Positions 25,949 to 43,617 of a stretch of 64,000 nt of DNA are shown in pieces. The notes under the pieces were generated by a model, which was given only the letters and a program-made list of their open reading frames with translations, made no database searches and was not told the DNA's origin. How positions within the stretch are numbered: the first letter of the stretch is position 1; each line of letters opens with the position of its first letter. Position numbers and translations under genes: made by a program. Source of the DNA: Enorma massiliensis phI (GTDB lineage Bacteria; Actinomycetota; Coriobacteriia; Coriobacteriales; Coriobacteriaceae). The stretch spans positions 1,021,248-1,085,247 of the forward strand of contig NZ_HE978574.1 in assembly GCF_000311845.1 (NCBI RefSeq), read 5' to 3'.

Positions 25949-25958
25949 GCAGCATGCA

Positions 25959-25987
25959 GCGGGGCGAGAGGTCTTCTCCCGCCCCGC
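25959..25987. terminator. Bidirectional hairpin between amylosucrase and AraC gene
   Basis: Stem GCGGGGCGAGAG/CTCCCGCCCCGC (one mismatch) with a 5-nt loop in a convergent gap. There is no long T run. Confidence 0.55.
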
Positions 25988-25990
25988 CAT

Positions 25991-26017
25991 GTGAAATCAG
26001 GACAGAGGGAATTTCAC
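25991..26017. repeat. Dispersed palindromic element, copy 2
   Basis: GTGAAAT at 25991-25997 and ATTTCAC at 26011-26017 frame CAGGACAGAGGGA. This is the cleanest of three copies; it abuts the stop codon of the minus-strand AraC gene. Confidence 0.8.
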
Positions 26018-26018
26018 C

Positions 26019-27289: not shown

Positions 27290-28399
27290 ATGGCTGGACT
27301 TTCACTCGAACACATTGGCAAGACGTACCCAAATGGCTTTGAGGGGGTGAAGGACTTCAATCTCGAGATCGAGGACAAGGAGTTTATCATCTTCGTCGGT
27401 CCCTCGGGCTGCGGCAAATCCACGACGCTCCGCATGATTGCCGGCTTGGAAGACATCACCTCCGGCACGCTGAAGATCGATGGCAGGGTGGTGAACGACG
27501 TTGAGCCGGCCGACCGAGACATCGCCATGGTCTTCCAGACCTACGCGCTTTACCCGCATATGACGGTCTACGACAACATGGCTTTCCCGTTGAAGCTCCG
27601 CAAGGTCCCGCAGGCCGACATCGACAAGGCCGTGCACGAGGCCGCGCGCATCCTTGACCTTGAGAAGCTTCTCGATCGCAAGCCGTCTGCCCTTTCCGGT
27701 GGCCAGCGCCAGCGTGTCGCCATGGGCCGCGCCATCGTGCGTCGTCCCAAGGTTTACCTCATGGACGAGCCGCTCTCCAACCTCGATGCGAAGCTCCGCG
27801 TGCAGATGCGCGCCGAGATCTCGAAGCTGCATGATCGCCTGGGCGCCACCATCATCTACGTCACGCACGACCAGACCGAGGCCATGACGCTCGGCACCCG
27901 CATCGTCGTGATGAAGGACGGCGTGATGCAGCAGGTCGATACCCCGTCCAAGCTGTATAGCGAGCCCTGCAACCTGTTTGTGGCCGGTTTCATCGGCTCC
28001 CCGCAGATGAACTTCATCGACGCCACGGTGGTCGAGAAGGACGGCGCGGTGGCCCTTACCTTTGGATCGAACGCTGTCACCCTGCCCGATGCCAAGGCGG
28101 CCGCGCTCAAGCCGTACGCGGGCAAGGTCGTCGTCATGGGCATCCGCCCCGAGGACGTGGTGGAGGAGCACGAGTACGCCGAGGGCAAGGCGCTCTCCGA
28201 GCAGATCGACGCGACGGTGACCGTCTACGAGCTCCTGGGCTCCGAGGCCATGATCTACGGCGACGTGGACGGCGGCCAGATCTCCGCCCATATCTCGGCG
28301 AGCAACCCCGTCCGCACCGGCAACCGCATCAAGGTCGCCTTCGATGTCGACAAGCTGCACGTGTTCGACAAGGACACCGAGCTCGCCATCGTTCACTAG
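27290..28399 (+). CDS. msmK: Sugar ABC transporter ATP-binding protein (MsmK/UgpC type)
   Basis: Cytoplasmic ATPase of a CUT1 carbohydrate importer, 369 residues. Walker A GPSGCGKST, Q loop FQTYALYPHMTV, signature LSGGQRQRVAMGRAI, Walker B VYLMDEPLSNLDAKLR and switch His in VTHDQTEAMT are all intact. The C-terminal regulatory TOBE-type domain (from about 240) is typical of MsmK/MalK. ATG 27290 has GGAAGGGG upstream. Having the ATPase gene first is unusual; MsmK proteins often serve several importers. Confidence 0.93.
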   Translation: MAGLSLEHIGKTYPNGFEGVKDFNLEIEDKEFIIFVGPSGCGKSTTLRMIAGLEDITSGTLKIDGRVVNDVEPADRDIAMVFQTYALYPHMTVYDNMAFPLKLRKVPQADIDKAVHEAARILDLEKLLDRKPSALSGGQRQRVAMGRAIVRRPKVYLMDEPLSNLDAKLRVQMRAEISKLHDRLGATIIYVTHDQTEAMTLGTRIVVMKDGVMQQVDTPSKLYSEPCNLFVAGFIGSPQMNFIDATVVEKDGAVALTFGSNAVTLPDAKAAALKPYAGKVVVMGIRPEDVVEEHEYAEGKALSEQIDATVTVYELLGSEAMIYGDVDGGQISAHISASNPVRTGNRIKVAFDVDKLHVFDKDTELAIVH

Positions 28400-28420
28400 C
28401 ATTCGGGAGGAGGGCAAAGC

Positions 28421-29704
28421 ATGCTTACCAAGCCAATTTCGCGCCGCTCGCTCCTGGGGCTCTCGGCTGCGGGGGCGGCGTCGCTCATGCTCGGCGGCTG
28501 TTCCGAGACACGCTCGGACGGCAAGACCGAGGTTGAATTCGTCTCGTACAAGCGCGAGGCGGTCAGCATCTTCGAGGCGCTCATGGCGGAGTTCAACGAG
28601 TCGAACGACCATATCTACCTCAACTTCACCAGCCCCAACGATGCCGTGACCATCATGAAGACGCGCTTCGTGCGCGAGGACTACCCCGACGTGGTGGCCA
28701 TCGGCGGCGACGCCTCGTACGCCGACTTCGTGGACTCGAACATCCTAGCCGACATGACCGAGTATCCGGGCATGGCGCAGGTGCAGCAGGCCTATCAGGA
28801 CATCATGAAGAGCGTCACCTACGTGCCCATGGACGGCATCTACGGCGTGCCCTACATCGCCAACGCCGCGGGCATGCTCTACAACAAGGACATGTTCGCC
28901 GAGAAGGGCTGGGACATCCCCGAGACCTGGGACGAGTTCATCGCGCTGTGCGAAGAGATCAAGGCGGAGGGCGAGGTGCTGCCGCTGTATCTCGGATTCC
29001 TCGATACGTGGACCATCCTCTCGCCGTGGAACTCCATCTTGGTCGACCTGGTGCCGCAAGACCATATCCGCAAGGTGAACGCTGGCGAGGCGAAGTTCGC
29101 CGACTACTATCGCGAGCCCGCCGAGAAGCTCTACCAGCTGCTGCAGTATGGTGAGGAAGGCCCGTTCGCCTACAGCTATGAGGACGCCTGCACCGCGTTC
29201 GCGCGCGGCCAGAGCGCCATGTTCCCCTGCGGCTCGTTCGCGGTTCCCCAGATCCTCTCGGCCAACCCCGACATGAACGTGGGCCTCTTCGCCATGCCCG
29301 CCGCCGACGATCCCGAGGACCGTCTCGTCGTTTCCGGCGTGGACCTATGCTGGAACATGACGGTGGCGAACGAGGATCACCGCGAGCTGGTCTATGAGGT
29401 CATCGACTTCTTGAACGAGCCCGACAACCTCCAGACCTATTGCGACGACCAGAAGGCCATTCCCTGCATCGAGGGCGATTTCACACTCGACCCGCTCTTC
29501 GACGACATCCAGGAGTTCCTCGATGCGGGCAAGGTCATCGACTATCCCGACCACTCGTATCCCTCCGGCATGGCGTGCGACGGACGGCTCCAGGCCTTCC
29601 TCATGGACGGCGACGTGGACGCGTTCCTGGAGAACTGGGACTCGCTGTGGCAGCGCTACAACAAGACGGTCATCCGCAAGGTGCAGGAAGCCGCGCAGGA
29701 GTAA
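28421..29704 (+). CDS. Sugar ABC transporter substrate-binding lipoprotein
   Basis: Family 1 extracellular solute-binding protein, 427 residues. The N terminus SRRSLLGLSAAGAASLMLGG plus Cys27 gives both a twin-arginine-like motif and a lipobox, so it may be a Tat-exported lipoprotein. Typical motifs are YPDVVAIGGDASYADFVDSN, GVPYIANAAGMLYNKDMFAE and GWDIPETWDEFIALC. Substrate is probably an oligosaccharide such as raffinose or a maltodextrin, judged from neighbours. Codons are 22 nt after msmK. Confidence 0.92.
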   Translation: MLTKPISRRSLLGLSAAGAASLMLGGCSETRSDGKTEVEFVSYKREAVSIFEALMAEFNESNDHIYLNFTSPNDAVTIMKTRFVREDYPDVVAIGGDASYADFVDSNILADMTEYPGMAQVQQAYQDIMKSVTYVPMDGIYGVPYIANAAGMLYNKDMFAEKGWDIPETWDEFIALCEEIKAEGEVLPLYLGFLDTWTILSPWNSILVDLVPQDHIRKVNAGEAKFADYYREPAEKLYQLLQYGEEGPFAYSYEDACTAFARGQSAMFPCGSFAVPQILSANPDMNVGLFAMPAADDPEDRLVVSGVDLCWNMTVANEDHRELVYEVIDFLNEPDNLQTYCDDQKAIPCIEGDFTLDPLFDDIQEFLDAGKVIDYPDHSYPSGMACDGRLQAFLMDGDVDAFLENWDSLWQRYNKTVIRKVQEAAQE

Positions 29705-29716
29705 GGGGGTATACAC

Positions 29717-30586
29717 ATGGCTCAAACCGCAAAGGCCAAGATCGGGTCGGCACGCAATCGCACGTTCATGGCGATTCTCATCCCCGTCTTGGTGATCTTC
29801 GTTCTCTTCAATACGATCCCGCTCATCACGGGCTTCTTCTACAGCTTCACGGACTCCAAGGGCTATGGCTCGTTCAGCATCGTGGGCATCCAGAACTACA
29901 TCGACCTGTTCACCGATACGCGCGTGCTCAACTCGTATCTCTTCACGTTCAAGGTCGCTGTCGTTGCCACGATCCTCACGAACGTGATCAGCCTGACGCT
30001 CGCGATAGGCCTCTCGAGCAAGATCAAGTTCAAGAGCGCGCTCCGCGGCGTGTACTTCGTGCCCCGCATTCTCGGCGGCCTGGTCGTGGGCTACGTCTTC
30101 AGCTACTTCTTCACCTACATCCTGCCGGCCCTCACCGGTACCGCCTCGATGCTCGCGAGCACCGAGTGGGCCTGGGTCGCGATCGTGGTCGTGCTGGTGT
30201 GGCAGGCGTGCGCGCAGACGACCATCATCTACATCACCGGGCTTTCCTCCGTTCCCGAGGACGTCTACGAGGCGGGCGCGCTTGACGGCGCGACCGGCTG
30301 GGATAAGTTCCGCTACATCACGTTCCCGCTCATCATGCCCTCTATTACCACCAACATGGTGCTCGTCATGAAGGACATGCTCATGGTGTTCGACCAGATC
30401 GTGTCCATGACCTCCGGCGGCCCGGCGCAGTCCACCGAGTCCATCTCGTACCTTATCTACCAGAACGGTCTCAACAACAGCCAGTTCGGGTTCCAGTGCG
30501 CCAACGCGGTGATCTTCTTCATCCTCATCGCTGTGGTCTCGATCCTGCAGACCAAATTCTTGAACAGTAAGGAGGAGCAGCTCTAA
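29717..30586 (+). CDS. Sugar ABC transporter permease (MalF/UgpA/MsmF type)
   Basis: 289 residues with six membrane helices and the EAA loop (EDVYEAGALDGATGWDKFRY) that contacts the ATPase. It has the short N terminus of CUT1 permeases rather than MalF's long one. ATG 29717 lies 12 nt after the lipoprotein stop. Its last base overlaps the next gene's start. Confidence 0.93.
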   Translation: MAQTAKAKIGSARNRTFMAILIPVLVIFVLFNTIPLITGFFYSFTDSKGYGSFSIVGIQNYIDLFTDTRVLNSYLFTFKVAVVATILTNVISLTLAIGLSSKIKFKSALRGVYFVPRILGGLVVGYVFSYFFTYILPALTGTASMLASTEWAWVAIVVVLVWQACAQTTIIYITGLSSVPEDVYEAGALDGATGWDKFRYITFPLIMPSITTNMVLVMKDMLMVFDQIVSMTSGGPAQSTESISYLIYQNGLNNSQFGFQCANAVIFFILIAVVSILQTKFLNSKEEQL

Positions 30587-31431
30587 TGGCAAAGGCAAAA
30601 GTCAAGGAGCGGGTCAACTGGCCTGTGACCATCCTGCTCATCGTGGGTCTCATCACCATCGTCTTCCCGCTGTACATGGCGGTCGTCATCGCGTTCAAAG
30701 ATCCGTCCGAGATGACCAACGACATCGCGGGAATCCTGTCGCTGCCGAGCACGTGGAGCCTCGACAACTTCATCGAGGCCATGCGGGTCACCGACTTCTT
30801 CCGGTCGTTCATGAACTCGCTCATCATCACGGTTGCCGCCGTGGTCGTGTCGATCCTCGTGCACAGCCTCGCGGCATACGCCATCGGGCGCAACATGGAT
30901 CGCAAGAAGATCTTCAAGGTTTCCTACTACTTCATCATCGCCGGCATGTACGTGCCGTTCGCGATCCTCATGATGCCGCTCGTCAAGCAGACCGCCGTGA
31001 TGCACCTCGACAACATGGTGGGCGTCATGGTGCTCTACGTGGTCTTCTACATGCCCATGAACATGATGCTCTACACGGGCTACCTGCGTAACGTCCCCGT
31101 TGCGCTCGAGGAGGCCGCGCGCGTGGACGGCGCGAGCACCTGGACGACGTATTGGAAGATCATCTTCCCGCTCATGAAGCCCATGCATGCGACCGTCGCC
31201 GTTATCACCGGCCTGGCCGTGTGGAACGACGTCATGACCCCGCTCGTCATCATGGGCGGCTCGGGCGTGAACACCCTGCCGCTCGCGCAGATGAACTTCC
31301 AGACCGCGTTCGCGACGAACTACAACCTGGCGTTCGCTTCGTACCTGCTTGCCATGCTCCCCATGATCATCTTCTACATCGTGGCGCAGAAGCAGATTAT
31401 CGGCGGCGTCACCAACGGTGCCGTGAAGTAG
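30586..31431 (+). CDS. Sugar ABC transporter permease (MalG/UgpE/MsmG type)
   Basis: 281 residues, six helices, EAA loop VALEEAARVDGASTWTTYWK. TAATGG overlap with the preceding permease implies translational coupling. A C-terminal VAQKQIIGGVTNGAVK is the usual MsmG/MalG ending. It completes a four-gene importer. Confidence 0.94.
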   Translation: MAKAKVKERVNWPVTILLIVGLITIVFPLYMAVVIAFKDPSEMTNDIAGILSLPSTWSLDNFIEAMRVTDFFRSFMNSLIITVAAVVVSILVHSLAAYAIGRNMDRKKIFKVSYYFIIAGMYVPFAILMMPLVKQTAVMHLDNMVGVMVLYVVFYMPMNMMLYTGYLRNVPVALEEAARVDGASTWTTYWKIIFPLMKPMHATVAVITGLAVWNDVMTPLVIMGGSGVNTLPLAQMNFQTAFATNYNLAFASYLLAMLPMIIFYIVAQKQIIGGVTNGAVK

Positions 31432-31458
31432 CGCTTACAGATTCGCTCGCTTCATGCA

Positions 31459-31495
31459 GCGCGCCCGCAGCTCCGAGAAGCTGCGGGCGCGCTTT
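31459..31495 (+). terminator. Terminator of the sugar ABC operon
   Basis: Perfect 14-bp stem GCGCGCCCGCAGCT/AGCTGCGGGCGCGC with a 6-nt loop, followed by TTTG. Confidence 0.8.
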
Positions 31496-31506
31496 GCGTT
31501 GGGCAG

Positions 31507-31551
31507 AAAAAACCGGGCTGCGAGCCACATGGATAGCGGCTTGCAGCCCGG
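31507..31551 (-). terminator. Terminator of the alpha-glucosidase gene
   Basis: On the minus strand, CCGGGCTGC/GCAGCCCGG (with further inner pairing) is followed by six T residues. Confidence 0.82.
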
Positions 31552-31604
31552 GGCTGAGCGCGCCTGTGCTATGCCTGCCGGCGCGCGGCGTATCGTCTGC
31601 GTCT

Positions 31605-33308
31605 CTAGGCGCAGGCGATCCAAGCGGAAGCGTCTTGGGGAAGCTTGCCATCGACGAGCTCAGCGGAGGCGATGAGCACCTCTCCTGCGGGCAGTGCTGC
31701 AGGCGCCGCTCCGAAGTTCGTCATGCTCACGAGTGTGCGGCCGTCGGCAAGCGGGCGCTGGTAGGCAACCACGTCGCCTGCGTTGGCTTCGTCCCACGCG
31801 AGCGATGTATCGCCCGTGGGCACGATCAGCGCGCGACGAAGCGCGAGGGCGGCACGGTAGAAGCTGAGCATCGAAGCCTCGTCGCCCTCTTCGACGTCGA
31901 CGGCGAACTGGGCGAACCACGCCGGTTGCGGAAGGTGCGGGGCGGCGTGGTCGGCAGGGCCGGAGAAGCCGAAGTCGCCTGTCGCATCGAGCGATGTCCA
32001 CGGGAGCGGAACGCGGCACCCGTCGCGCCCCTTGATGGCGTCACCGTGAGCGGTCATCTGCGCCTGAGGGTCCTCGAGCGCCCCCCACGGGATATCGGCG
32101 ACCTCAAAGAGGCCGAGCTCCTCGCCCTGATAGAGATAGACCGATCCAGGGAGCCCGAGCTCCATGAGGAGCGCCGCGCGAGAGCGCCGGGTGCCCGCCT
32201 CGCGGTCCTCGTAGTAGGTCGTGCCGTCGCGCAGCAGCCAGTCGGTTGCAATCTGGTGGTGGGTGCTCGAAGGCACCTGCGGAAGGGCGAACCGGGTTGC
32301 GTGGCGCGGGACATCGTGGTTGGAGAGGACCCATGTGGTCGTCGACTTCGAGCGCTCGGCAGCATCGAGGCCCTCCTCGATGGCGAGCCGGAAGTCGGCG
32401 GCGAACCAGTTCTTCTTGGCGAATTCGAAGTTGAAGACCTGGCCAAGCTCATCGGTGGAGGCGTACATCCACTGATGCTCGGGCGCTACCCATGCTTCGC
32501 CGACTGCAAAGCGCGCCGGCTCGTACTCGTTGAACACCTGGCGCCACTCGCGGTAGATGTCGTGGACCTCCGGGCGATCCCAGAGCGGGTTCTCGTCGTC
32601 GCTGCCGCTCTGAGCGAGGCTCGATTGGCCGGGGTCGTCGGGCCAGTCTTCAAGCGGGCGGCTGTCGATATCCTTGGCAAGCGCATGGGCCACATCGATG
32701 CGGAAGCCGTCGGCGCCGCGGTCGCTCCAGAAGCGCAGAGTGGTTTTGAAGTCCTCGTGGACCTCGGGGTTCTTCCAGTTGAGGTCGGCCTGCTCTACAG
32801 CGAAGAGGTGCAGATACCATTCGCCGTCGCCAACCGGCTCCCATGCAGGGCCGCCGAAGGTCGACTTCCAGCCGTTGGGGGGCAGCTCCCCATGCTCGCC
32901 CCGACCCGGACGGAAGATGAAGCGGTCGCGCTCCGGAGAGCCGGGGCCCGCTGCGAGCGCCGCGCGGAACCATTCGTGCTCGGTGGACGTATGGTTGGGC
33001 ACGATGTCCACGATCACCTTCATGCCGGCGGCGTGGGCGGCTTCAGCCATCTTGTCGAAGTCTTCGAGCGTGCCCAGGCGCGGGTCCACGTCGCGGTAGT
33101 TCGCCACATCGTATCCGCCATCGATAAGGGGAGACGGGTAGAACGGCGAGAGCCAGATGGCATCGACGCCAAGCGCGGCCAGGTAATCGATCTTTGCCGT
33201 GACGCCTGCGATGTCGCCTAGGCCGTCCCCGTTGGCGTCGTAGAAGCTGCGCGGGTACACCTGGTACACTACCGCCTGCTTCCACCAATCAGCATGTGCG
33301 TTGGTCAT
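31605..33308 (-). CDS. Alpha-glucosidase, GH13 (oligo-1,6-glucosidase/maltase type)
   Basis: Cytoplasmic exo-acting enzyme of 567 residues. The N terminus WWKQAVVYQVYPRSFYDANG and GDIAGVTAKIDYLAALGVDA are typical. Nucleophile Asp205 (GFRIDVAH), acid/base Glu271 (AVGEAWV) and His331-Asp332 (SNHDVPRHATRF) are present. The sequence resembles actinobacterial GH13_30 maltases more than Bacillus MalL. It would trim maltodextrins or isomaltose to glucose, but sucrose or trehalulose cleavage is possible. ATG 33308 follows AAGGAGC. Confidence 0.88.
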   Translation of the reverse strand: MTNAHADWWKQAVVYQVYPRSFYDANGDGLGDIAGVTAKIDYLAALGVDAIWLSPFYPSPLIDGGYDVANYRDVDPRLGTLEDFDKMAEAAHAAGMKVIVDIVPNHTSTEHEWFRAALAAGPGSPERDRFIFRPGRGEHGELPPNGWKSTFGGPAWEPVGDGEWYLHLFAVEQADLNWKNPEVHEDFKTTLRFWSDRGADGFRIDVAHALAKDIDSRPLEDWPDDPGQSSLAQSGSDDENPLWDRPEVHDIYREWRQVFNEYEPARFAVGEAWVAPEHQWMYASTDELGQVFNFEFAKKNWFAADFRLAIEEGLDAAERSKSTTTWVLSNHDVPRHATRFALPQVPSSTHHQIATDWLLRDGTTYYEDREAGTRRSRAALLMELGLPGSVYLYQGEELGLFEVADIPWGALEDPQAQMTAHGDAIKGRDGCRVPLPWTSLDATGDFGFSGPADHAAPHLPQPAWFAQFAVDVEEGDEASMLSFYRAALALRRALIVPTGDTSLAWDEANAGDVVAYQRPLADGRTLVSMTNFGAAPAALPAGEVLIASAELVDGKLPQDASAWIACA

Positions 33309-33344
33309 GAAAAGCTCCTTTCAACCGTTGGGCGCACGCCCCAG

Positions 33345-35609
33345 CTAACCCAGATGCCAGATCTCGTCGTTGTATTCGCGAATCGTTCGGTCCGACGAGA
33401 AGAAACCTGATGTCGCGATGTTCACGAGCATCTTGCGCCCCCATGCCGCTCGGTCTTCGTAGTCGGCGAGGCAGCGCTCCTTGGTGGCCGCGTAGTCCCG
33501 AGCATCGAGCAGGGCCATGAAGTAGTCCTTCGCCACGAAGTCTCTGTACACGCGAGCGAGTGCGGCGGCATTGCCGCATGCGAGAAGCTCGGGCGAGACG
33601 ATGAAGTCGATCGCCTCGGCCATCTCGGGATCGTGTTGCCAGAGGTCCCATGGGTGGTAGCCACCCGTCTCGTAGAGCTCAATGACCTCTTCGGACGAGC
33701 GGCCGAAGAGATAGATGTTCTCTGCGCCCACGAGGTTGGCGATCTCGACGTTCGCGCCGTCGAGCGTGCCGAGCGTCACGGCGCCGTTTGCCATGAACTT
33801 CATGTTCGAGGTGCCGCTGGCCTCCTTTGATGCGAGCGAGATCTGCTCGGAGATGTCTGCGGCGGGAATGAGGTGCTCGGCAGCGGTGACGTTGTAGTTC
33901 TCGACCATCACAAGGCGCAGCCAGGGCGAGACCGCGGGGTCGCGCTCGATGAGGCGCGAGAGTGCGAGCAGCAGCGCGATGGTGTCTTTGGCGAGCTCGT
34001 AGGCGGGTGCGGCCTTCGCGGCGAATATCATGGTGACGGGGCGCGTGGGAACGTTTCCACGTTTGATGCGCAGATACTTCCAGATGGCGTAGAGGGCGTT
34101 CATCTGCTGGCGCTTGTACTGGTGCATGCGCTTGATCTGGATATCGAAGACGGATTCGGGATCGACCTTGATGCCCTGCGTCCGCTGCAGCCAGGATGCG
34201 AGCGCGCGCTTGTTGTGCTGCTTGATCGCTTCGAGCTCGCCGGTAAGCGCGTCGGCATCGGCTACCGAGAGCAGGCCGCTCAGCCGCTGGGCGTCAGTTA
34301 CCCAGCCATCGCCGATTCGCTCGGTGATGCAGCGGGCGAGTGCGGGGTTGGCGTCGAGGAGCCAACGCCTGAAGGTGATGCCGTTGGTCTTGTTGGAGAA
34401 CTTGTCGGGGTAGAGCTCTGCGAAGGGGCGCATCTCGGAGCTCGTGAGGATATGGGTGTGGAGCGCCGCCACGCCGTTCACCGCATGGCAGAAGTGAACG
34501 TCCATATGGGCCATGTGCACGCAGTCGCTCGAATCGATGACGGCAACGCGCTCGTCGTTGCTGCGGGATCGGGCGCGCTCATCGAGCTTGCGGATGATGG
34601 GCACGATGCCGGGGGCCACTTGCTCGATGAAGCGCATGGGCCATGTTTCGAGCGCCTCGGCGAGGATGGTGTGGTTCGTGTAGGCGCAGGTGCGCTCGAT
34701 CACATCGGCCGCCTGGTCGAATGGCATGCCGTCTTCCATGAGAAGCCTGATCATCTCGGGGATGACCATCGAGGGGTGCGTGTCGTTGATGTGGATTGCC
34801 GCGTAGCGGTCAAGCTCCGAAGGCTGGTGCCCGCGCTCCGCAAGCTCGCTCAATATGAGCTGTGCCCCTGCCGAGATCATGAAGTACTGCTGGTATACGC
34901 GCAAAAGACGCCCTTCCTCGGTGGAATCGTCGGGGTAGAGGAACGAGGTGAGCTGATGCGCCACATCGGATGCATCGAACGCGATGCCGTTTTCGGGTGC
35001 GGGCGCAGGGTCGATGACATCGAAGAGATGCAGGCGGTTGCACACGCCGTTCTTGTAGCCGGGAATCTGGATGTCGAACATGCGGGCCGAAAGGTCGCCC
35101 GAGCCGAAGGGCACCGTGAACGAGGAGCCCGTCTCGATGAGCCAGGAATCCGGCTCGATCCAGGGATTCGGCTTTTCGAGCTGCACGCCCTGCGAAAGGT
35201 CCTGGCGGAAGAGGCCGAAGTGGTAGTTGAGCCCCATGCCGTCGCCGGGAAGGCCAAGCGAGGCGATGGAGTCGAGAAAGCATGCCGCTAGGCGCCCCAG
35301 CCCGCCGTTGCCGAGCGAGGGTTCGGGCTCGCGGTCCTCGACCTCGGCGAGTGAGGTCCCGTGCTCGGCGAGTATGCGCTCGGCATCGTCGAGCAGGCCG
35401 AGGTTCTGCAGGTTTGCCCGGAGGAGCCTGCCGATGAGGAACTCAGCGGAGAAGTAGTAGAGCTTTCGGTCGCCCTGCGCCGGTTTCTGCTTGAGCTCGA
35501 CGTCGCGGGTAACGCGCAGAAGCGCGCAAAACAGCTGTTCCGGGCTTGCTTGGTCGAGGTTCGTCCCCATGGCGTCGAGCGTGCTTGCCAGGCTGGTTTC
35601 GAGGTCCAT
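33345..35609 (-). CDS. glgP: Glycogen/maltodextrin phosphorylase
   Basis: PLP-dependent GT35 enzyme releasing glucose-1-phosphate from alpha-1,4-glucan, 754 residues. The PLP-lysine region SGTSNMKFMANGAVTLGTLD, the substrate loop SLGNGGLGRLAACFLDS and HINDTHPSMVIPEMIRLLM are clear. ATG 35609 has AAGGAGG upstream; an earlier frame start would overlap malQ. It begins one base after the malQ stop, so the two are translationally linked, as in classical malPQ operons. The length is slightly short of E. coli GlgP (815), closer to Gram-positive forms. Confidence 0.94.
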   Translation of the reverse strand: MDLETSLASTLDAMGTNLDQASPEQLFCALLRVTRDVELKQKPAQGDRKLYYFSAEFLIGRLLRANLQNLGLLDDAERILAEHGTSLAEVEDREPEPSLGNGGLGRLAACFLDSIASLGLPGDGMGLNYHFGLFRQDLSQGVQLEKPNPWIEPDSWLIETGSSFTVPFGSGDLSARMFDIQIPGYKNGVCNRLHLFDVIDPAPAPENGIAFDASDVAHQLTSFLYPDDSTEEGRLLRVYQQYFMISAGAQLILSELAERGHQPSELDRYAAIHINDTHPSMVIPEMIRLLMEDGMPFDQAADVIERTCAYTNHTILAEALETWPMRFIEQVAPGIVPIIRKLDERARSRSNDERVAVIDSSDCVHMAHMDVHFCHAVNGVAALHTHILTSSEMRPFAELYPDKFSNKTNGITFRRWLLDANPALARCITERIGDGWVTDAQRLSGLLSVADADALTGELEAIKQHNKRALASWLQRTQGIKVDPESVFDIQIKRMHQYKRQQMNALYAIWKYLRIKRGNVPTRPVTMIFAAKAAPAYELAKDTIALLLALSRLIERDPAVSPWLRLVMVENYNVTAAEHLIPAADISEQISLASKEASGTSNMKFMANGAVTLGTLDGANVEIANLVGAENIYLFGRSSEEVIELYETGGYHPWDLWQHDPEMAEAIDFIVSPELLACGNAAALARVYRDFVAKDYFMALLDARDYAATKERCLADYEDRAAWGRKMLVNIATSGFFSSDRTIREYNDEIWHLG

Positions 35610-35610
35610 G

Positions 35611-37164
35611 TTAGTCCTCCTTGCTCGTGGGTTCTGCGGCGCCGTTCGCGGCGGTTGCCACGCGCGCCTCATCGGCTGGAATGCGGTGATAGAGGTGGAG
35701 TTGGTGGCGCAGGCGCGCTGCGAGCGATCTGCTCGCAAAGCCGGGACGCGCCCGCCAAGTCCAATTGCCTCCAAGGGTTGAAGGGGTGTTGATGCGCGCC
35801 TCGCTGCCGAGTTCCAGCACGTCTTGCATCTGCACGACGGCGAGTTCCGAGGCGCTCGCCCAGATGCCGCGCATCATGCCCCAGCCCTCGCCCTCGCGGT
35901 CGTCGAGACGGAGGTACTCGCGTGCCGTGCGGGTATCGGGCGCGGGTGCGTTGGCAAGCCATCCGAGCGCGGTGTCGTTATCGTGGGTGCCAACGTAGGC
36001 CACGCTGTTTTCGGGATACGCGAACGGAAGATAGGTGTCGTCTCCGGCCTCGGAATCGCGCGTGTCGAAGGCGAATTCGAGCACCTTCATGCCGGGGAAC
36101 CCGGTGTCGTCGAGGAGTTGGCGCACCGACGGGGTGAGGTATCCCAGGTCTTCTGCCACGATGCTCACATCGCCCACGGCAAACCTCAGCGCTTGGAAGA
36201 GCGCCTTGCCCGGGCCTTTCCGCCAGCGTCCTCCCGCAGCGGTTGCCGCCCCGGTGGGGATGGCGAAATAGGAGTCGAAGCCGCGGAAATGGTCGATGCG
36301 CAGGATGTCGTAGAGGCGCAGCTGGAACGAGATTCGGTCGATCCACCAAGCGTAGCCTTCCGCTTTCATGCGGTCCCATGCGAAGAGTGGGTTCCCCCAG
36401 ATCTGCCCGATGGCCGAGAACCCGTCGGGGGGAACGCCGGCGATCTCGGTGGGGCGCAGCTCTTCGTCGAGCTGGAACTGCTCGGGGTGCGCCCAGACGT
36501 CCGCGCTGTCGAGGGCTACATAGAAGGGGAGGTCTCCCATGATGCGGATGCCTGCAGTCCTGGCGTAGATGCGCAGGCTCTCCCACTGGCGGAAGAACAG
36601 GCACTGGACCGCCTGCCAGAAACGCACGCGGTCGGCGAGCTCCATGCGCGCGCGAGCGAGCTCGACGGGCTGGCGATGACGGAGCGCTGCCTCCCAGGTG
36701 TTCCACGAGGCACCGCCATGGGCTTCCTTGAGGGCCATGAAGAGGGCATAGTCATCCAGCCAGGAGGCCTCACGCTTGCAGAAGGCGTAGAACTCGTCGG
36801 GGTGCATGCTGGCAAGCCGCCGCGCTGCGCGGGCGAGCACATCGAAGCGCGCCTCGTATAGCGCGCCGTAGTCTACGCGGTCGGCCTGGGAGCTCCAGGT
36901 GCGGCCGGCGTACTCCGTGCGGTCGAGAAGGCCTTCGGCGGCGAGGTCGTCGAGGTCGATGAGGTAGGGATTGCCCGCATACGTGGAAAACGATTGGTAG
37001 GGCGAATCGCCGTAGCTCGTGGGCACGATGGGTAGAACCTGCCAGACCGATACGCCTGCCTCGGCGAGGAAATCGATAAACGAGCGCGCTTCTGCACCCA
37101 TGGTGCCCACGCCCCACGGCGAGGGAAGCGCGGTGATGGGCATGAGGATTCCGGCTCTTCTCAT
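35611..37164 (-). CDS. malQ: 4-alpha-glucanotransferase (amylomaltase)
   Basis: GH77 disproportionating enzyme, 517 residues, that lengthens short maltodextrins so the phosphorylase can use them. Typical sequences are RRAGILMPITALPSPWGVGT, SYGDSPYQSFSTYAGNPYLI, RIDHFRGFDSYFAIP (catalytic Asp), IVAEDLGYLTPSV (catalytic Glu) and GTHDNDTALGW. It is the first structural gene of the malQ-glgP operon, lying 18 bp downstream of the LacI regulator gene on the same strand. Confidence 0.95.
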   Translation of the reverse strand: MRRAGILMPITALPSPWGVGTMGAEARSFIDFLAEAGVSVWQVLPIVPTSYGDSPYQSFSTYAGNPYLIDLDDLAAEGLLDRTEYAGRTWSSQADRVDYGALYEARFDVLARAARRLASMHPDEFYAFCKREASWLDDYALFMALKEAHGGASWNTWEAALRHRQPVELARARMELADRVRFWQAVQCLFFRQWESLRIYARTAGIRIMGDLPFYVALDSADVWAHPEQFQLDEELRPTEIAGVPPDGFSAIGQIWGNPLFAWDRMKAEGYAWWIDRISFQLRLYDILRIDHFRGFDSYFAIPTGAATAAGGRWRKGPGKALFQALRFAVGDVSIVAEDLGYLTPSVRQLLDDTGFPGMKVLEFAFDTRDSEAGDDTYLPFAYPENSVAYVGTHDNDTALGWLANAPAPDTRTAREYLRLDDREGEGWGMMRGIWASASELAVVQMQDVLELGSEARINTPSTLGGNWTWRARPGFASRSLAARLRHQLHLYHRIPADEARVATAANGAAEPTSKED

Positions 37165-37182
37165 GAGGACGGTTCCCTTCTC

Positions 37183-38247
37183 TTAGCGGTGCAGCCGGTG
37201 CGTATCGTGGGCGGCGGCGAGAAGGTTCGCGACGCCGCTGGTGTTGGGTGCGCCCACGCTCTCCTGCTCGAGGATGTCGAAGGGGGCAAGCTCGTGCAGG
37301 GCTTGCGCGGGCCCCTGCATGCCTTGGAGGAGCAGGTCCACGCTGTGGTCTGCGAGGGCATCGGTATCCTGGCGCACGGTGGTGATGCGAGGGACGGAGT
37401 AGCGCGAGAGCGCGGTGCCGTCGAAGCCCATGATGGAGAGGGTGCCGGGAACGCTGCCCCCTCGGTCGTAGATGGCGCGGATGGCGCCAAAGGCGATGAC
37501 GTCTCCAAGCGCAAGGACGGCGGTAAGGTCCGGGGAGCGCCAGAGAAGCCTTCCGATGGCGCGGTATCCCGCCTCTTCGGTGAAGTCGCAGGGCTCATAA
37601 TCCTGGTCGCGGCTGAAGACGATGCCGTGGGCCATGAGCGCGCTCTCCGCGCCCTCGAGGCGGCGCCCGCCGATCTGTTCCGGGGAGCGCGTGCCGCCGA
37701 GGATGCCGATGCGGCGGTGGCCGGCGGCATGGAGGTAATCGATCGCGCGCGCGGCGGCTGCCTCGTTATCGATCGTAACGCTCGAGAGATTCTCGAAGCC
37801 AAGGCCCTCTGCGGTGTTGGTGATAAGCACGCTCGGCACCGTAATCTGGCCGAAGGCCTCGCGGAAGTAGGTGCGCTCGCCACCAAGGAACAGCATCGCC
37901 TTGGGATGGCGCGTCTGCTGGTAGCCGATGGCGAACTGGACCTCGTTGGCATCGTCTTCCAGGTGCGTGACGGCCACCTCTTCGCCCAGGGCCCAGAATC
38001 GCGCCTGGATGCGGGTGAGAATGTCACCGAAGAGCCGGTTGCTCGTTCCCATGACGAAGACGGCGACGGGGGAGGGCGAGCGCATCTTGAGGTAGCGCGC
38101 ATTGGTGTTGGGCTCGTACCCGCAGGCGTCCATCACGGCGAGGATGCGCTCGCGTGCTTGGTCGCTCACGTTGGATTGGCCGTTGATGACGCGCGAAACC
38201 GTGCTGACGCCGTAGCCGGCACGCTCCGCGATGTCCCTGATGTTCAT
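37183..38247 (-). CDS. LacI-family transcriptional regulator
   Basis: 354 residues. N-terminal helix-turn-helix MNIRDIAERAGYGVSTVSRV and hinge ERILAVMDACGYEPNTNARY, then a periplasmic-binding-protein-like sensor domain (VTIDNEAAAARAIDYLHAAG, AVLALGDVIAFGAIRAIYD). ATG follows GGAGG. As the promoter-proximal gene of the malQ-glgP operon, with two matching operators upstream, it should repress itself and the operon until a maltodextrin-type signal binds. Confidence 0.94.
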   Translation of the reverse strand: MNIRDIAERAGYGVSTVSRVINGQSNVSDQARERILAVMDACGYEPNTNARYLKMRSPSPVAVFVMGTSNRLFGDILTRIQARFWALGEEVAVTHLEDDANEVQFAIGYQQTRHPKAMLFLGGERTYFREAFGQITVPSVLITNTAEGLGFENLSSVTIDNEAAAARAIDYLHAAGHRRIGILGGTRSPEQIGGRRLEGAESALMAHGIVFSRDQDYEPCDFTEEAGYRAIGRLLWRSPDLTAVLALGDVIAFGAIRAIYDRGGSVPGTLSIMGFDGTALSRYSVPRITTVRQDTDALADHSVDLLLQGMQGPAQALHELAPFDILEQESVGAPNTSGVANLLAAAHDTHRLHR

Positions 38248-38266
38248 GCCCCTCCTTATGCCTGTG

Positions 38267-38286
38267 TTATGGAAACGGTTCCATAA
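38267..38286. promoter_or_regulatory. LacI-type operator O1
   Basis: TTATGGAAACGGTTCCATAA, palindromic around a central CG, 20 bp upstream of the LacI start codon. It matches the LacI/CcpA-type core TGGAAACGGTTCCA. Confidence 0.88.
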
Positions 38287-38322
38287 ATCTGTACTATAGG
38301 CTAAATAACGTTGGTAGATAGT

Positions 38323-38342
38323 TCATGGAAACGGTTCCATAA
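38323..38342. promoter_or_regulatory. LacI-type operator O2
   Basis: TCATGGAAACGGTTCCATAA, with the 14-bp core identical to O1. Centre-to-centre spacing is 56 bp, with an AT-rich promoter-like segment between the sites. Confidence 0.88.
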
Positions 38343-38766
38343 CTTAGTCACAGTTTCATCACATATCGAGTGACGGGGCTGGATTGCCGCGCTGCGACCC
38401 GCGGTTTTCCGCACGTTGTCAAGCGCTGCCCTCGCGCTGCACGCTGCGACCCGCTCGATTCTGCCTCACTGAATGCTGCGCTCCGAGAGGCGCCAAGCTA
38501 TTTCGCATGCCACGCCCTGCCCAACATCGCCTCTCGCCGGACGCCGGGCCCTCCGAGCCGCACCTCGCCGAACGCTGGGCCGCGCCAGCCCGATAAGTTT
38601 GCTAAGCTTGTGTTGGTTCACTCTGCGATTTATTGCGAGGTATGCGCGTTTATAATGCAACGGGCAGGGTTTTGCCTGCTTGACCGAGGTGTCGTTCGGG
38701 TGGCGGCTGCGGCTGCTTCCCCTTGGGCGCCCACACCGCGTGAGCATCAACTAAAGGGGAGGTATC
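38343..38766. other. Gap upstream of alpha-galactosidase
   Basis: 424 bp without a credible gene. It contains two imperfect short direct repeats: CGCTGCGACCCGC (near 38391 and 38443) and CTCGCCGRACGCYGGGCC (near 38531 and 38567). A TATAAT box at 38651-38656 is a candidate -10 for the downstream gene, without a convincing -35. The Shine-Dalgarno AGGGGAGG is near 38753. Confidence 0.45.
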
Positions 38767-40962
38767 ATGCCGATCGTCGTTGACGAAGAGACAAAGATCT
38801 TCACCATCAAAACCAAGAACTCGACGTACCAGATGCAGGCCGATTCGTACGGCTTTTTGCTGCATCTGTATTACGGGGCACGCACGGACGGCTATATGGC
38901 CTATTTGGTGACCTACGCCGACCGGAGCGGAATGTGCGGCTGCCCCTACGATGTTCACGACCGCACGTACTCGCTCGACGTGCTGCCCCAGGAGTACCCC
39001 TTCCAAGGCGCGGGAGACATGAGGAGCCCCTTGCTGGTCGTTCGCGACGACCACGGCGCGTTCGGCTGCGACCTTCGCTACCGCGATTACGAGATTCGGC
39101 CCGGCAAGTACGACCTTCCCGGGCTTCCCGCGGTCTATAGCGAGGATGAGTCGGATGGAGCTGAGACGCTCGTCATCCGCCTTGCCGACGAGCGCGTGGG
39201 CATTACCGTTGAGTTGCTATACGGCGTGCTCCCCGAGATAGATATCATCACGCGCGCCGCGATCATCAAGAACGAAGGCACCGGCGTCGTAACGGTCGAC
39301 CGTGCCCAGACGGCATGCCTCGACTTCGTGCACGGTGAGTACGACGTTATCTCCTTCTACGGGCGCCATGCCATGGAGCGCACCCCGGATCGCCACCATG
39401 TTGGCCATGGGACCTTCTCGGTGGGAAGCCGTCGCGGCATGTCTTCCAACCAGTACAGCCCGGTGATGGTGCTCTGCGATGAGCGGGCAACGGAATCTAC
39501 GGGTCGTGCTTGGGGCATGAACTTCGTCTATAGTGGTGGGTTCGAGGCCGAGGTCACATGCGAGCAGTACAACCAGACGCGCATGCAGATGGGCCTTTCC
39601 GACGACCGGTTCTCCTATCCGCTTGCTCCGGGCGAGCAGCTGGTCGCGCCCGAGGTCATCATGACCTACTCGAATGCGGGCATCGAGCGCGTCTCCCAAA
39701 ACTTCCACCGCTGCATCCGCAAGCACGTATGCCGCGGTACGTGGCGCGACCGTCCGCGTCCGGTGCTGCTCAACAGCTGGGAGGCCTTCTATTTCGATTT
39801 CACGGGCGAGAGCCTGGTGCGCCTCGCCGAACAGGCCGCAAGCCTGGGTATCGAGATGCTCGTCATGGACGATGGCTGGTTCTCCACGCGGCGCGATGAT
39901 TTCCGGGCGCTCGGCGACTGGACGGTGAATGAGGGGAAGCTCGGCGGCACCCTGAAGGATCTCGTTGACCGCGTGAACGATTTGGGGCTCAAGTTCGGCA
40001 TCTGGGTGGAGCCGGAGATGGTGAGCGAGGACAGCGAGCTCTACCGCGAACATCCCGACTGGGTGCTCGCGGTGCCGGGGAAGGGCCCCGTGCTCGGTCG
40101 CGACCAGCTCGTGCTCGACCTCTCGCGCGAGGAGGTGCGCGACAACCTTTATGCGCAGCTTTGCGCTGTGCTCGATCAGGCCAACATCGAGTACGTGAAG
40201 TGGGATTACAATCGCAGCATCGTGGACACCTATTCCCGCGCATCGAACGATCAGGGCAAGGTGCTCTACGACTACATGCTCGGCCTGTACGACCTGCTCG
40301 AGCGTCTCGTCCAGCGCTATCCCCGGATTCTCTTCGAGGGTTGCTCTGCGGGCGGCGGCCGGTTCGATGCGGGCATGCTCTACTACACGCCGCAGATCTG
40401 GACGAGCGACAACACCGATGCCATCAATCGCCTGACCATCCAGTACGGCACCTCGTTCGGCTTCCCGGCGTCTGCCATGGGCGCGCACGTCTCGGCATGC
40501 CCCAACGAGGTCAACGGGCGCGAGACGCCCATCACGACGCGCGGCATCGTTGCCATGCAGGGGGGCGGCTTCGGCTACGAGCTCGATCTGCTCAAGCTTC
40601 CTGAGCGCGCCTGCGAGCACATCCGCAATCAGGTGAAGCGCTATCACGAGGTCGAGGACCTGGTGCGCGAGGGCCTGTTCTTCCGCCTGAGCTCCCCGCT
40701 TACGGATGCCGTGTGCGCGTGGGAGTACGTTGCCGAGGACGGGTCCCGTGCCGTGGTGAGCGCAGTGCTGCTCTCGGTTAACGGGTACGGCGTAGCGAAC
40801 TATGTCGTTCCGCGCGGCCTCACCCCGGGGGCGCTCTATCGGAATCTGGACACGGGCGTGGTCTATCCGGCCGACGCCCTCATGGATGCTGGATTCCCCT
40901 TGCCGGTGGGGCTCGACGCGAATGCTGCGGTGATGTATCGCTTCGAGCGTGTCGACGTCTAG
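38767..40962 (+). CDS. Alpha-galactosidase, GH36
   Basis: Releases galactose from raffinose-family sugars or melibiose. It has 731 residues, the tetrameric GH36 length: an N-terminal beta-sandwich, then a (beta/alpha)8 barrel from about 330 (PVLLNSWEAFYFDFTGESL, MLVMDDGWFSTRRDDFRALG). Asp480 in VKWDYNR is the nucleophile and Asp534 in GGGRFDAGM the acid/base. No signal peptide is present, so substrates must be imported, presumably by the ABC system at 27-31 kb. The ATG has GGGGAGG upstream. Confidence 0.95.
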   Translation: MPIVVDEETKIFTIKTKNSTYQMQADSYGFLLHLYYGARTDGYMAYLVTYADRSGMCGCPYDVHDRTYSLDVLPQEYPFQGAGDMRSPLLVVRDDHGAFGCDLRYRDYEIRPGKYDLPGLPAVYSEDESDGAETLVIRLADERVGITVELLYGVLPEIDIITRAAIIKNEGTGVVTVDRAQTACLDFVHGEYDVISFYGRHAMERTPDRHHVGHGTFSVGSRRGMSSNQYSPVMVLCDERATESTGRAWGMNFVYSGGFEAEVTCEQYNQTRMQMGLSDDRFSYPLAPGEQLVAPEVIMTYSNAGIERVSQNFHRCIRKHVCRGTWRDRPRPVLLNSWEAFYFDFTGESLVRLAEQAASLGIEMLVMDDGWFSTRRDDFRALGDWTVNEGKLGGTLKDLVDRVNDLGLKFGIWVEPEMVSEDSELYREHPDWVLAVPGKGPVLGRDQLVLDLSREEVRDNLYAQLCAVLDQANIEYVKWDYNRSIVDTYSRASNDQGKVLYDYMLGLYDLLERLVQRYPRILFEGCSAGGGRFDAGMLYYTPQIWTSDNTDAINRLTIQYGTSFGFPASAMGAHVSACPNEVNGRETPITTRGIVAMQGGGFGYELDLLKLPERACEHIRNQVKRYHEVEDLVREGLFFRLSSPLTDAVCAWEYVAEDGSRAVVSAVLLSVNGYGVANYVVPRGLTPGALYRNLDTGVVYPADALMDAGFPLPVGLDANAAVMYRFERVDV

Positions 40963-41068: not shown

Positions 41069-43030
41069 ATGCTCGACGATTATCGCCGTGCGCGCAAGCT
41101 CGGCCATAAGCAGCTTCAGACGGACGTTTCTGCGGGCCGCTACCCGTACCTGCCCGCCCTCGACGATATCCTCAAGGGCGAGGGGTACCAGGGCGAGGTT
41201 CCCATGGGCACGATGGAGATCGATATCGACCTCATCGCGGGCACGCGCACGCGCGGGCGTCAGAACACCTTCGCGACGAACTTCATGCCCCTGCCCGAGA
41301 GCGGCTCAGAGTTCTCGATGAAGTGGAGCGACCTCATCGACTCGCAGCGCGCTGAGGGCATACGCGACCCCATCGTCGTCTATGAGTTCATGCAGCGCTT
41401 CTACGTGCAGGAGGGCAATAAGCGCGTTTCCGTTTTGCGCTATCTGGGGCAGCCGACGATTCTCGCGTCCGTTACGCGCGTGGTGCCCATGCCCTCCGAT
41501 ACCGAGGCCTATCGCATCTACCAGGAGTTCATGCGCTTCTTCAACGTAGCGCCCATCTACGGCATCGTGTTCACCCGCGAGGGCGACTACGTGCGGCTGG
41601 CGGCGTTTGCTGGGCAGGACCTCGATCATGCCTGGCCGCAGGAGGTCGTGCGCGATTTCCGCTCCGCGTTCGAGACGTTCCTCGGCGCCTTCCGCAAACG
41701 CGGGGGTGAGCATCTGGGGCTCACGGCGGGGGAGGCCTTCCTTGCCTACCTTGTCGTCTTCGGCTATGAGGAGGCGGTGCGCGCGCTGCCGAGCGAGGTC
41801 GATCAGAACGTTGAGCGCATGTGGGGCGAGTTCGTCGTCAAGCGCGACGGCGGCAAGGTGGCCTATCTGGAAGACCCGCGCTCGAGCCGCGCTGCCATCA
41901 TTCCCGAGCTCAAGAACCTCTATAAGGATGTCGTGCGCTCGAAGCCGTTCCGGGCTTCGTTCATTTACGGGGAAAACCCACTCGTTGACGGCTGGACGGC
42001 CCTCCATGAGCAGGGGCGCTTCGAGCTTGAGCGGCGCCTGGGGGCGACCATCTCGACCCGAGCCTACCGCGATTGCGTCGATGCGACCGATTTCGACCTT
42101 GCCGTGGACGACGCGCTGGCCGAGGGGTCCGATCTCATCGTGACCATCGCGCCCACCCAGATGCGCGACAGCCTGCGTGCCGCGGTAGCGCATCCGGAAT
42201 GCACGTTCATCAACTGCTCGGTGAGCCTCTCGCATAGCGCGGTGCGCACGTTCAGCATCCGCTTGTACGAGGCGAAGTTCCTACTCGGAGCGCTCGCAGC
42301 GAGCATGGCGGAAAACCATAAGGTCGGCTATGTTGCCGAGACCCCAGTCTTCGGCAGCGTGTCTGAGATCAACGCCTTCGCCATCGGCGCGGCCATGGTC
42401 GACCCGCTCGTGACCGTCTATCTCAAGTGGTTCTCGGCGAAGGATTACGATTGGAAGCGAGAGCTTGCCGAGGAAGAGGTGCGGATCGTCTCGGCGCGAG
42501 ACTATCCCAACCCGGCGGACCCGGGCGAGGCATGGGGGCTCTACCGCGTGGAGGAGGACGGTACGACCACGCACCTTGCCGAGCCCGTGCTGAAATGGGG
42601 GCGCTACTACCAGCTCATCGTGCAGTCTATCCGCAGCGAGACGTGGCACAAAGAGCAGAGCGAGCTTTCGGGCCTTGCGCTCAATTACTGGTGGGGAATG
42701 TCTTCCGGCGTGCTCGATGTGGGGCTCTCGGACGGGCTGCCCTATGGCCAGCGAGCGCTCATCGAGGTGCTGCGGCAGTCGGTGCTCACGCGGCGCATCG
42801 ATCCCTTTGCCGGCGAGCTTGCAAGCCAAGAGGGCCCGGTGAAGGCCGCCGAGGCGGGCCGCCTTTCGAGCGAAGAGATCGTGCGCATGAGCTGGCTCAA
42901 TGCGAACGTGGTGGGCCGTTTGCCCGAGCAGCGCGAGCTTTCCGAGGAGGGCCTTGAGAAGGTGGAGGTCAGCGGGCTCATTCCCGTCGATGTCGCGAAG
43001 CTTCCGCATAAGGGGACGACGCTCGCATGA
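41069..43030 (+). CDS. Cytoplasmic fusion of a ParB-like domain and a BMP (nucleoside-binding) domain
   Basis: 653 residues with no signal peptide or lipobox. Residues about 45-140 look like a ParB/sulfiredoxin-fold domain: SDLIDSQRAEGIRDPIVVYE, then FYVQEGNKRVSVLRYLG, where GNKR occupies the position of the ParB nucleotide motif. Residues about 300-470 match Bmp/PnrA-type binding proteins (ENPLVDGWTALHEQGRFELE, LIVTIAPTQMRDSLRAAVAH, AKFLLGALAASMAENHKVGY). The final 180 residues are unrecognised. Bmp domains normally bind nucleosides outside the membrane; here one is probably an internal sensor. ATG 41069 follows GAGG. Its stop overlaps the next start (ATGA). Confidence 0.75.
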   Translation: MLDDYRRARKLGHKQLQTDVSAGRYPYLPALDDILKGEGYQGEVPMGTMEIDIDLIAGTRTRGRQNTFATNFMPLPESGSEFSMKWSDLIDSQRAEGIRDPIVVYEFMQRFYVQEGNKRVSVLRYLGQPTILASVTRVVPMPSDTEAYRIYQEFMRFFNVAPIYGIVFTREGDYVRLAAFAGQDLDHAWPQEVVRDFRSAFETFLGAFRKRGGEHLGLTAGEAFLAYLVVFGYEEAVRALPSEVDQNVERMWGEFVVKRDGGKVAYLEDPRSSRAAIIPELKNLYKDVVRSKPFRASFIYGENPLVDGWTALHEQGRFELERRLGATISTRAYRDCVDATDFDLAVDDALAEGSDLIVTIAPTQMRDSLRAAVAHPECTFINCSVSLSHSAVRTFSIRLYEAKFLLGALAASMAENHKVGYVAETPVFGSVSEINAFAIGAAMVDPLVTVYLKWFSAKDYDWKRELAEEEVRIVSARDYPNPADPGEAWGLYRVEEDGTTTHLAEPVLKWGRYYQLIVQSIRSETWHKEQSELSGLALNYWWGMSSGVLDVGLSDGLPYGQRALIEVLRQSVLTRRIDPFAGELASQEGPVKAAEAGRLSSEEIVRMSWLNANVVGRLPEQRELSEEGLEKVEVSGLIPVDVAKLPHKGTTLA

Positions 43031-43617
43031 AGATCCTCGCCATCGCAGACGTTGAGCAGAGCTGGCTGACGACGGGCTTTGATCCGGAGCGCCTGCGCGG
43101 CGTGAACATGATCATCTCGTGCGGCGATCTGCCGGCGCGCTACCTCGAGCACGTGGTCACGATGGCCAACCTCCCGCTCCTCTATGTTCCGGGAAACCAC
43201 GACACCGCCTATCGTTCGCACGCGCCGGAGGGTTGCGATAGCATCGACGGCCGCATTCGCGAGGTGGCCGGCGTGCGCATCATGGGGTTCGGCGGGTCCA
43301 TGCGCTATAACGAGCGCGTCTACGGGTTTACCGAGCAGGAGATGCGCAGGCGCGTGATGCGCCTTGCGTTTCAGGCGAAGCTCACCGGCGGCGTGGATAT
43401 CGTGGTGACCCATGCGCCGCCGTACGGCTATGGCGACATGGACGATTACGCGCACACCGGTTTCGATGCCTTCAACACCGCGATCGAGATTCTGCGGCCA
43501 GCCTATCTCGTTCACGGGCACATCCATATGGAGTACGGGCGCATCGATCGCGTGATCGAGCATCCCGCCGGCACGCGTATCGTCAACGCGTGCGGCTCCT
43601 ATATGTTCGACCTGTAG
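43027..43617 (+). CDS. Calcineurin-like metallophosphoesterase
   Basis: 196-residue minimal phosphoesterase. Metal motifs are GD (33-34), GNHD (56-59), His129 (VVTHAPPYG) and HGHIH (163-167). The first motif, normally DxH, reads D8-V-E10, so one metal ligand is changed. It overlaps the ParB/BMP gene by 4 bp (ATGA), which means tight translational coupling and suggests joint action. The substrate may be a nucleotide or cyclic nucleotide (inference). Confidence 0.85.
   Translation: MKILAIADVEQSWLTTGFDPERLRGVNMIISCGDLPARYLEHVVTMANLPLLYVPGNHDTAYRSHAPEGCDSIDGRIREVAGVRIMGFGGSMRYNERVYGFTEQEMRRRVMRLAFQAKLTGGVDIVVTHAPPYGYGDMDDYAHTGFDAFNTAIEILRPAYLVHGHIHMEYGRIDRVIEHPAGTRIVNACGSYMFDL

Follow-up and report, generated by a model that had tools for sequence, protein, structure and literature searches.

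A ParB/sulfiredoxin-like–BMP fusion paired with a phosphoesterase in Enorma massiliensis: the version, found in Coriobacteriia and Bacillota, of a widespread two-gene module with a lineage-specific sugar link

The DNA analysed here, called the window throughout, is a stretch of 64,000 nucleotides of the gut bacterium Enorma massiliensis phI (contig NZ_HE978574.1, positions 1,021,248 to 1,085,247), and our interest lies in two overlapping genes within it (Table 1). The first encodes a fusion protein of a ParB/sulfiredoxin (Srx)-like domain, a helical region and a BMP domain, and the second a predicted metallophosphoesterase. The fusion ORF opens with the ATG at 41069, 5' of which stands a Shine-Dalgarno-like sequence (GAGGTGGGG); scans for promoters and terminators around the gene pair gave nothing above chance. 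The pair follows a GH36 alpha-galactosidase gene at 106 bp on the same strand, its neighbours being malQ, lacI, the alpha-galactosidase gene, tig, clpP and clpX, and upstream of it the window holds genes for the LacI regulator, malQ, a glycogen phosphorylase, alpha-amylases and a sugar ABC transporter. A carbohydrate cluster as a whole extends over 24005-40962, with two GH13 enzymes, an AraC regulator, the sugar ABC transporter, glycogen phosphorylase, 4-alpha-glucanotransferase (malQ), LacI and the GH36 alpha-galactosidase.

Table 1. Features of the gene pair and its surroundings, in window coordinates
Feature	Position	Strand	Basis or remark
Sugar ABC transporter (SBP and two PF00528 permeases)	28421..31431	+	Homologues just upstream of alpha-galactosidase in related loci
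LacI-family regulator, divergent	37183..38247	-	Upstream of the gene pair
GH36 alpha-galactosidase, directly upstream	38767..40962	+	Only copy of its family in the genome
ParB/Srx-like, helical DUF4032-like and BMP fusion protein, 653 aa, cytoplasmic (predicted)	41069..43030	+	ORF, domain models, hydropathy
ParB/sulfiredoxin-like domain, residues ~46-140	41204..41488	+	Family alignment, PDB profile matches, SerK/ParB models, hhalign
EGNKR, residues 115-119	41411..41425	+	Position of DGHHR/DGNHR in standalone relatives and of GERR in canonical ParB
Helical region, residues ~146-250	41504..41818	+	Homologous to C-terminal part of standalone ParB-like proteins
BMP/PnrA-type ligand-binding domain (predicted), residues ~292-620	41942..42928	+	Purine contacts mostly lost
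4-bp ATGA overlap (stop TGA, start ATG)	43027..43030	+	Kept in most relatives, including Bacillota
Calcineurin-like metallophosphoesterase (predicted), 196 aa	43027..43617	+	D8, GD34, GNH58, H129 and GHxH165-167 kept; motif-I His replaced by Glu10

Automatic annotation names the relatives of these two proteins 'BMP family ABC transporter substrate-binding protein' and 'metallophosphoesterase', which would suit a typical exported BMP lipoprotein whose start has been called wrongly and whose neighbour is unrelated. That reading is extremely improbable. A hydropathy scan of the 653-residue protein found no signal peptide or transmembrane segment (the highest 19-residue value in the first 60 residues is 0.28), in agreement with the first-pass annotation, which had described a cytoplasmic protein lacking any export signal. 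The hydrophobic N-terminus and the adjoining BMP-type ABC genes of a BMP transporter substrate-binding protein are both missing. Furthermore, conservation of the N-terminal region reaches residue 1, this region is homologous to a family of standalone proteins, and the gene pair is kept across phyla; because both the N-terminus and the pair are conserved, a secreted lipoprotein with a wrong start is ruled out. A search of the genome found no BMP protein besides the fusion, and its true ParB is encoded elsewhere (C1:87478).

The N-terminal domain probably has the ParB/Srx fold, as judged from profile matches that are weak but concordant, and the placing of such a domain ahead of the BMP part in the first reading holds. 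A single-sequence search of the domain gave nothing significant (sulfiredoxin 6ky4 at E 0.87), and the top four PDB matches of the family profile were a ParB, a sulfiredoxin and two SbnI entries, all weak (E 0.11-0.92). Among 21 family members, the NCBIfam models for SerK, ParB and SbnI matched seven (best 0.0029, in one member), three and one, respectively, and PF02195 and ParBc_2 match members weakly; PF02195 does not detect the window fusion. An hhalign comparison of the family profile with 20 aligned canonical ParB domains showed the two to be colinear, with EGNKR/DGHHR on GERR, at P 9e-4 and a probability of only 22% (control comparisons gave P 0.17 and 0.29); GNKR stands, as first proposed, where ParB and SerK have their nucleotide motif. 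The family pattern reads I-V-G-[ST] ... F-D-x-x-F-x-P ... R-W ... P-I ... D-G-[HN]-H-R, ending in E-G-N-K-R in the fusions, and within this last stretch G116 and R119 alone are invariant across the wider family. AlphaFold2 models built from shallow alignments reached a pLDDT of 55 for the N-terminal domain and 49 at full length, mostly below 50 over residues 1-141, and Foldseek returned no match with the low-pLDDT model.

The protein is not a canonical ParB: it carries EGNKR for GERR and does not match the NCBIfam ParB model (TIGR00180). Its sequence leans instead to the SerK-type relatives of ParB; one standalone actinobacterial relative is annotated 'chromosome partitioning protein ParB'. 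SerK (TK0378) is an ADP-dependent free-serine kinase that was itself first annotated as ParB (PMC5120207). SerK and SbnI are ParB-fold proteins, the former giving the best NCBIfam match and the latter being among the best, though weak, PDB profile matches; they differ from the window fusion, with its EGNKR, in having no BMP or DUF4032-like part. The catalytic Glu of SerK could not be traced in the family alignment.

CTP- or ATP-dependent switching of the fusion, suggested at the outset, is possible. In its fuller form this alternative, which we consider rather unlikely, holds that the protein is an NTP-dependent conformational switch that transfers no phosphate: CTP, ATP or GTP would be bound, the BMP ligand would set the open or closed state, a partner would be controlled, and the phosphoesterase would reset the system by removing nucleotide or product. 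The alignment of EGNKR with GERR agrees with it, and ParB-fold proteins with non-CTP NTP binding and with fused sensor domains such as CBS are documented in a recent survey (Kaljevic et al. 2025, PMC12704722). However, no HTH or ParB dimerisation domain was found in the protein, more family members are matched by SerK than by ParB, and an NTPase switch needs no dedicated phosphoesterase.

ParB-fold domain fusions as such are already known. The same survey describes fusion proteins of the ParB-CTPase fold that include ligand-binding CBS domains, and it resembles our case in that the fold is recruited to new functions by domain fusion (PMC12704722). Its search used PF02195 (PMC12704722), and a search of this kind misses the window fusion; its main text makes no mention of BMP, of phosphoesterases or of sugar terms (PMC12704722). 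Our literature search found no published description of the fusion-phosphoesterase pair, in keeping with the first-pass annotation, which had called it uncharacterised.

Two aspects had escaped that annotation. The first is that the N-terminal part belongs to a family of its own, extended by a DUF4032-like helical region: residues 1 to ~240 of the fusion are homologous end to end with standalone proteins (hhalign probability 99.5%, E 6e-22, against a profile of actinobacterial proteins and the Cetobacterium protein P0003), and AlphaFold2 models the helices of residues ~146-250 at high pLDDT. The second is that the standalone relatives carry the same phosphoesterase and that the neighbourhood points to galactose or sugar metabolism.

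The phosphoesterase is above the cut-off of both PF12850 and PF00149. The 11 diverse members compared all keep Asp8, Gly33-Asp34, Gly56-Asn57-His58, His129 and His165/His167; the D-x-H of motif I is incomplete, Asp8 being invariant and the His replaced by Glu, Val or other residues. Since the core motifs are invariant and the closest solved proteins are Dbr1, MPPED2 and Rv0805, the protein could well be an active enzyme whose metal binding is altered. It shares the calcineurin-like core with these three proteins but forms a separate, ParB-like-linked subfamily, with DxE for DxH in motif I. We know of no dedicated phosphoesterase for SerK or SbnI.

The pairing of the ParB-like gene with this phosphoesterase is real and extends across several phyla. 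The 4-bp overlap reported at first (TGA/ATG) recurs in Bacillota, and an exact 4-bp overlap was present in 12 of the 17 loci checked, Bacillota included. A phosphoesterase gene adjoins every full-length fusion found, and a truncated faecal scaffold that starts inside the BMP part (L047) shows none. The Collinsella aerofaciens pair is 41% identical in the fusion and 49% in the phosphoesterase, and the pair of Subdoligranulum (Bacillota) 37% and 50%, respectively. A profile of the phosphoesterase subfamily, run over 296 Actinomycetota genomes, retrieved 65 copies in 64 genomes, and 63 of the 65 adjoin a ParB-like gene on the same strand; rare co-occurrence of the two genes, which the first-pass annotation had named as counter-evidence to its reading, is clearly not what is seen. 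Standalone ParB-like genes account for most partners: 54 copies lie upstream of one, at distances of up to 201 bp (51 copies) or up to 1.3 kb (three copies), and the other nine follow a fusion gene directly; the strand is the same in every case. Of the two unpaired copies, one is a weak hit, and the genome of the other has its ParB-like gene close to the edge of a different contig. Counted by genome, both genes occur in 63, only the ParB-like gene in 9, only the phosphoesterase in 1 and neither in 223 (p 2.6e-53, ignoring phylogeny), several of the standalone ParB-like genes linked to sugar ABC transporters being without a phosphoesterase.

The BMP fusion is the version found in Coriobacteriia and Bacillota. 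The phosphoesterase is also paired in Tsukamurella, and in Cetobacterium (Fusobacteriota) with a ParB-like protein of 562 aa that has another C-terminal part (L048:5001-7294). The window pair is thus the Coriobacteriia/Bacillota form of a widespread two-gene ParB-like/phosphoesterase module, and the BMP domain a lineage-specific add-on, because standalone ParB-like proteins carry the same phosphoesterase. As a side observation, the C-terminal part of the Cetobacterium protein has no Pfam match and is possibly another sensor domain.

That the add-on is a BMP domain, as first annotated, is borne out by PF02608 (E 1e-11, 44.6 bits against a cut-off of 24.1) and by matches to AtzT (6pi5, E 1.3e-30 over 329 residues) and Brucella Bmp (3s99, E 7e-25). 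These two purine-binding solute-binding proteins have the same domain at full length, yet they are exported, and their purine contacts are not conserved in the window fusion. The nucleoside- or purine-sensing pair that was proposed initially, and that we now find quite improbable, draws on the guanine or adenine binding of the most similar solved BMP proteins (PMC6834077) and on the two contacts that persist in the fusions, Trp309 and Asp478. We followed the contacts of AtzT, namely Tyr/Trp45, Ser97, Phe98, Glu165, Trp194 and Asn/Asp220 (PMC6834077), the residue numbers mapping cleanly in 9/9 cases with an offset of 5. Across nine periplasmic relatives, AtzT and 3s99, there is no variation at Ser97, Phe98 and Glu165 and almost none at Trp194. 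The fusions have varying residues in place of Ser97, mostly Pro for Phe98 and Gly or Ser for Glu165, and Trp194 falls inside a deletion, so that only Trp309 (Tyr45) and Asp478 (Asn220) persist throughout. The proposed nucleoside or purine ligand was therefore not borne out, as the equivalents of Glu165, Phe98 and Trp194, purine contacts in AtzT (PMC6834077), are gone; additionally, no nucleotide-metabolism genes were seen adjoining the pair in the window. Because most purine contacts are lost, such a ligand is not the default; a putative sugar-derived ligand would fit the neighbourhood.

This leads us to the genomic context. Among 23 main-type Coriobacteriia loci (those with enough flank, duplicates counted once, the window included), an alpha-galactosidase or galK/galT gene lies within 5 kb of the pair in 22, the exception being L137. 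The E. massiliensis genome encodes a single alpha-galactosidase of the family and a single galactokinase, and the chance of an adjoining alpha-galactosidase was gauged from copy number only. There are about five arrangements of the galactose genes among these loci, and in one clade galK/galT share only 38-47% identity with their counterparts in the other loci; the galactose link has survived rearrangement, with related species being non-independent observations. In other actinobacteria, the standalone ParB-like gene ends an SBP-permease-permease-UgpC operon, often with GH13 (L081-L087, L049), and the Cetobacterium locus has sugar ABC permeases, a TrmB-family regulator and a glycogen phosphorylase as neighbours. 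The recurrence of galactose or sugar genes in Coriobacteriia is, like the protein family and its dedicated pairing, a direct observation, as is the sugar neighbourhood in the sugar-ABC-linked clade of other actinobacteria.

The sugar link is nevertheless lineage-specific. It is absent from C. aerofaciens-type loci (L139-L141), from L137 and from Bacillota loci L045 and L046, and in families f5, f8, f11 and f15 the neighbours are pyruvate dehydrogenase E1, S49 peptidase or cell-wall genes; a universal sugar link was rejected after the neighbour scan of these families. We note separately that a pyruvate dehydrogenase E1 gene is near the pair in several high-GC actinobacteria (L094 and others). 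The presence of the pair beside central-metabolism or unrelated genes in several lineages, together with Dbr1, MPPED2 and Rv0805 as the closest solved phosphoesterases, would agree with a metabolite-repair or housekeeping role, in which the phosphoesterase cuts a phosphomonoester or a cyclic/2'-5' phosphodiester side product that the ParB-like protein delivers or modifies, the sugar link being secondary. Given that gal and sugar-ABC neighbourhoods recur in separate lineages, and that the fusion has a BMP ligand-binding domain, we regard this role as unlikely.

A further line of evidence comes from DUF4032. Its model (PF13224) matches 6 of 21 standalone relatives (best E 3.4e-6, one just above the cut-off) and does not match the window fusion, its main home being proteins with a kinase-like N-terminal part; we read the latter as kinase-like by eye from W-G-D-x-S-L-[SA]-N and V-D-A-E-T in L111, L117 and L126. 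These proteins share with the ParB-like relatives the helical region and the place beside UgpC/sugar ABC genes, but have a kinase-like domain and no ParB/Srx, and no member of this phosphoesterase subfamily was found in their genomes. The kinase-like gene comes after UgpC in L111-L113 and L120, and in L117 it precedes an SBP-permF-permG-UgpC-GH13 operon that is 30-57% identical to that of Tsukamurella. Among 119 genomes, 21 have the kinase-like DUF4032 gene, 28 the ParB-like gene and 0 both (p 0.002, ignoring phylogeny). This mutual exclusion suggests that one phosphotransfer fold has been replaced by another, although the exclusivity may be phylogenetic. As the two unrelated, possible phosphotransfer folds have a helper region in common and occur at the same place in the genome, we prefer by inference a kinase/phosphatase reading to a pure CTP switch. 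Kinase-like DUF4032 proteins directly beside UgpC-type sugar ABC genes are apparently undescribed, and our literature search found no mention of DUF4032.

Our best explanation, to which we give a probability of about 40%, is that sugar uptake or metabolism is tuned by two opposed activities under the control of the BMP domain: a ParB/Srx enzyme that resembles SerK and uses NTP, and a phosphoesterase that counteracts it. More broadly, the module is probably a nucleotide- or phosphate-based switch acting on sugar metabolism. The ParB/Srx domain would bind an NTP and transfer phosphate, in the manner of SerK/SbnI, and the acceptor would be a small molecule or a protein with a link to sugar uptake or metabolism; the phosphoesterase would reverse the transfer, and the cytoplasmic BMP domain would bind a metabolite, probably sugar-derived, and thereby set the balance. 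The best named family matches (SerK, SbnI and ParB) and a phosphoesterase core kept bar the motif-I His argue for this explanation; the difference of EGNKR from DGHHR, and SerK catalytic residues with no traced equivalent, argue against it. A bolder version, an undescribed cross-phylum sugar-control system with a reversible ParB/Srx kinase and phosphatase, a protein-kinase-like DUF4032 protein able to stand in for the kinase at the same transporter and BMP as an intracellular sensor of a galactose metabolite, appears doubtful for now. If true, these ideas would provide a testable function for families that in many gut and soil bacteria bear only the labels 'BMP family substrate-binding protein', 'ParB' or 'metallophosphoesterase', and would add metabolic control linked to sugars to the roles of the ParB/Srx fold. 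Since the pairing is strict, knowing what one protein acts on should disclose the substrate of its partner, and the galactose genes nearby hint at a phenotype.

Bacillota were sampled through plasmid and phage collections only, and plasmid-collection matches beyond Collinsella and Subdoligranulum cover the BMP half only. No relative turned up when viral contigs were scanned with the fusion, with its alignment and with the homologue from Subdoligranulum, so that there is no sign of a phage-borne module. Several minor observations concern these collections. The phage-collection matches H61 and H62 are faecal scaffolds of 10-13 kb whose phage label is unconfirmed, and L044 (NZ_OY725717.1), L045 (OY725845.1) and L046 (MT836456.1) bear plasmid or phage labels yet look chromosomal, containing ribosomal-protein, elongation-factor, ClpC-like or peptidase genes. 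The only match of the Tsukamurella ParB-like query among viral contigs is a 2052-aa protein (L050:3976-10134) with a distant DGHHR ParB/Srx-like domain. Finally, genomes of family f15 carry short (~160 aa) extra ParB-like domains, up to three per genome and mostly away from the phosphoesterase, for example at G195:C1:2222418-2222825 and G237:C1:1177082-1177495.
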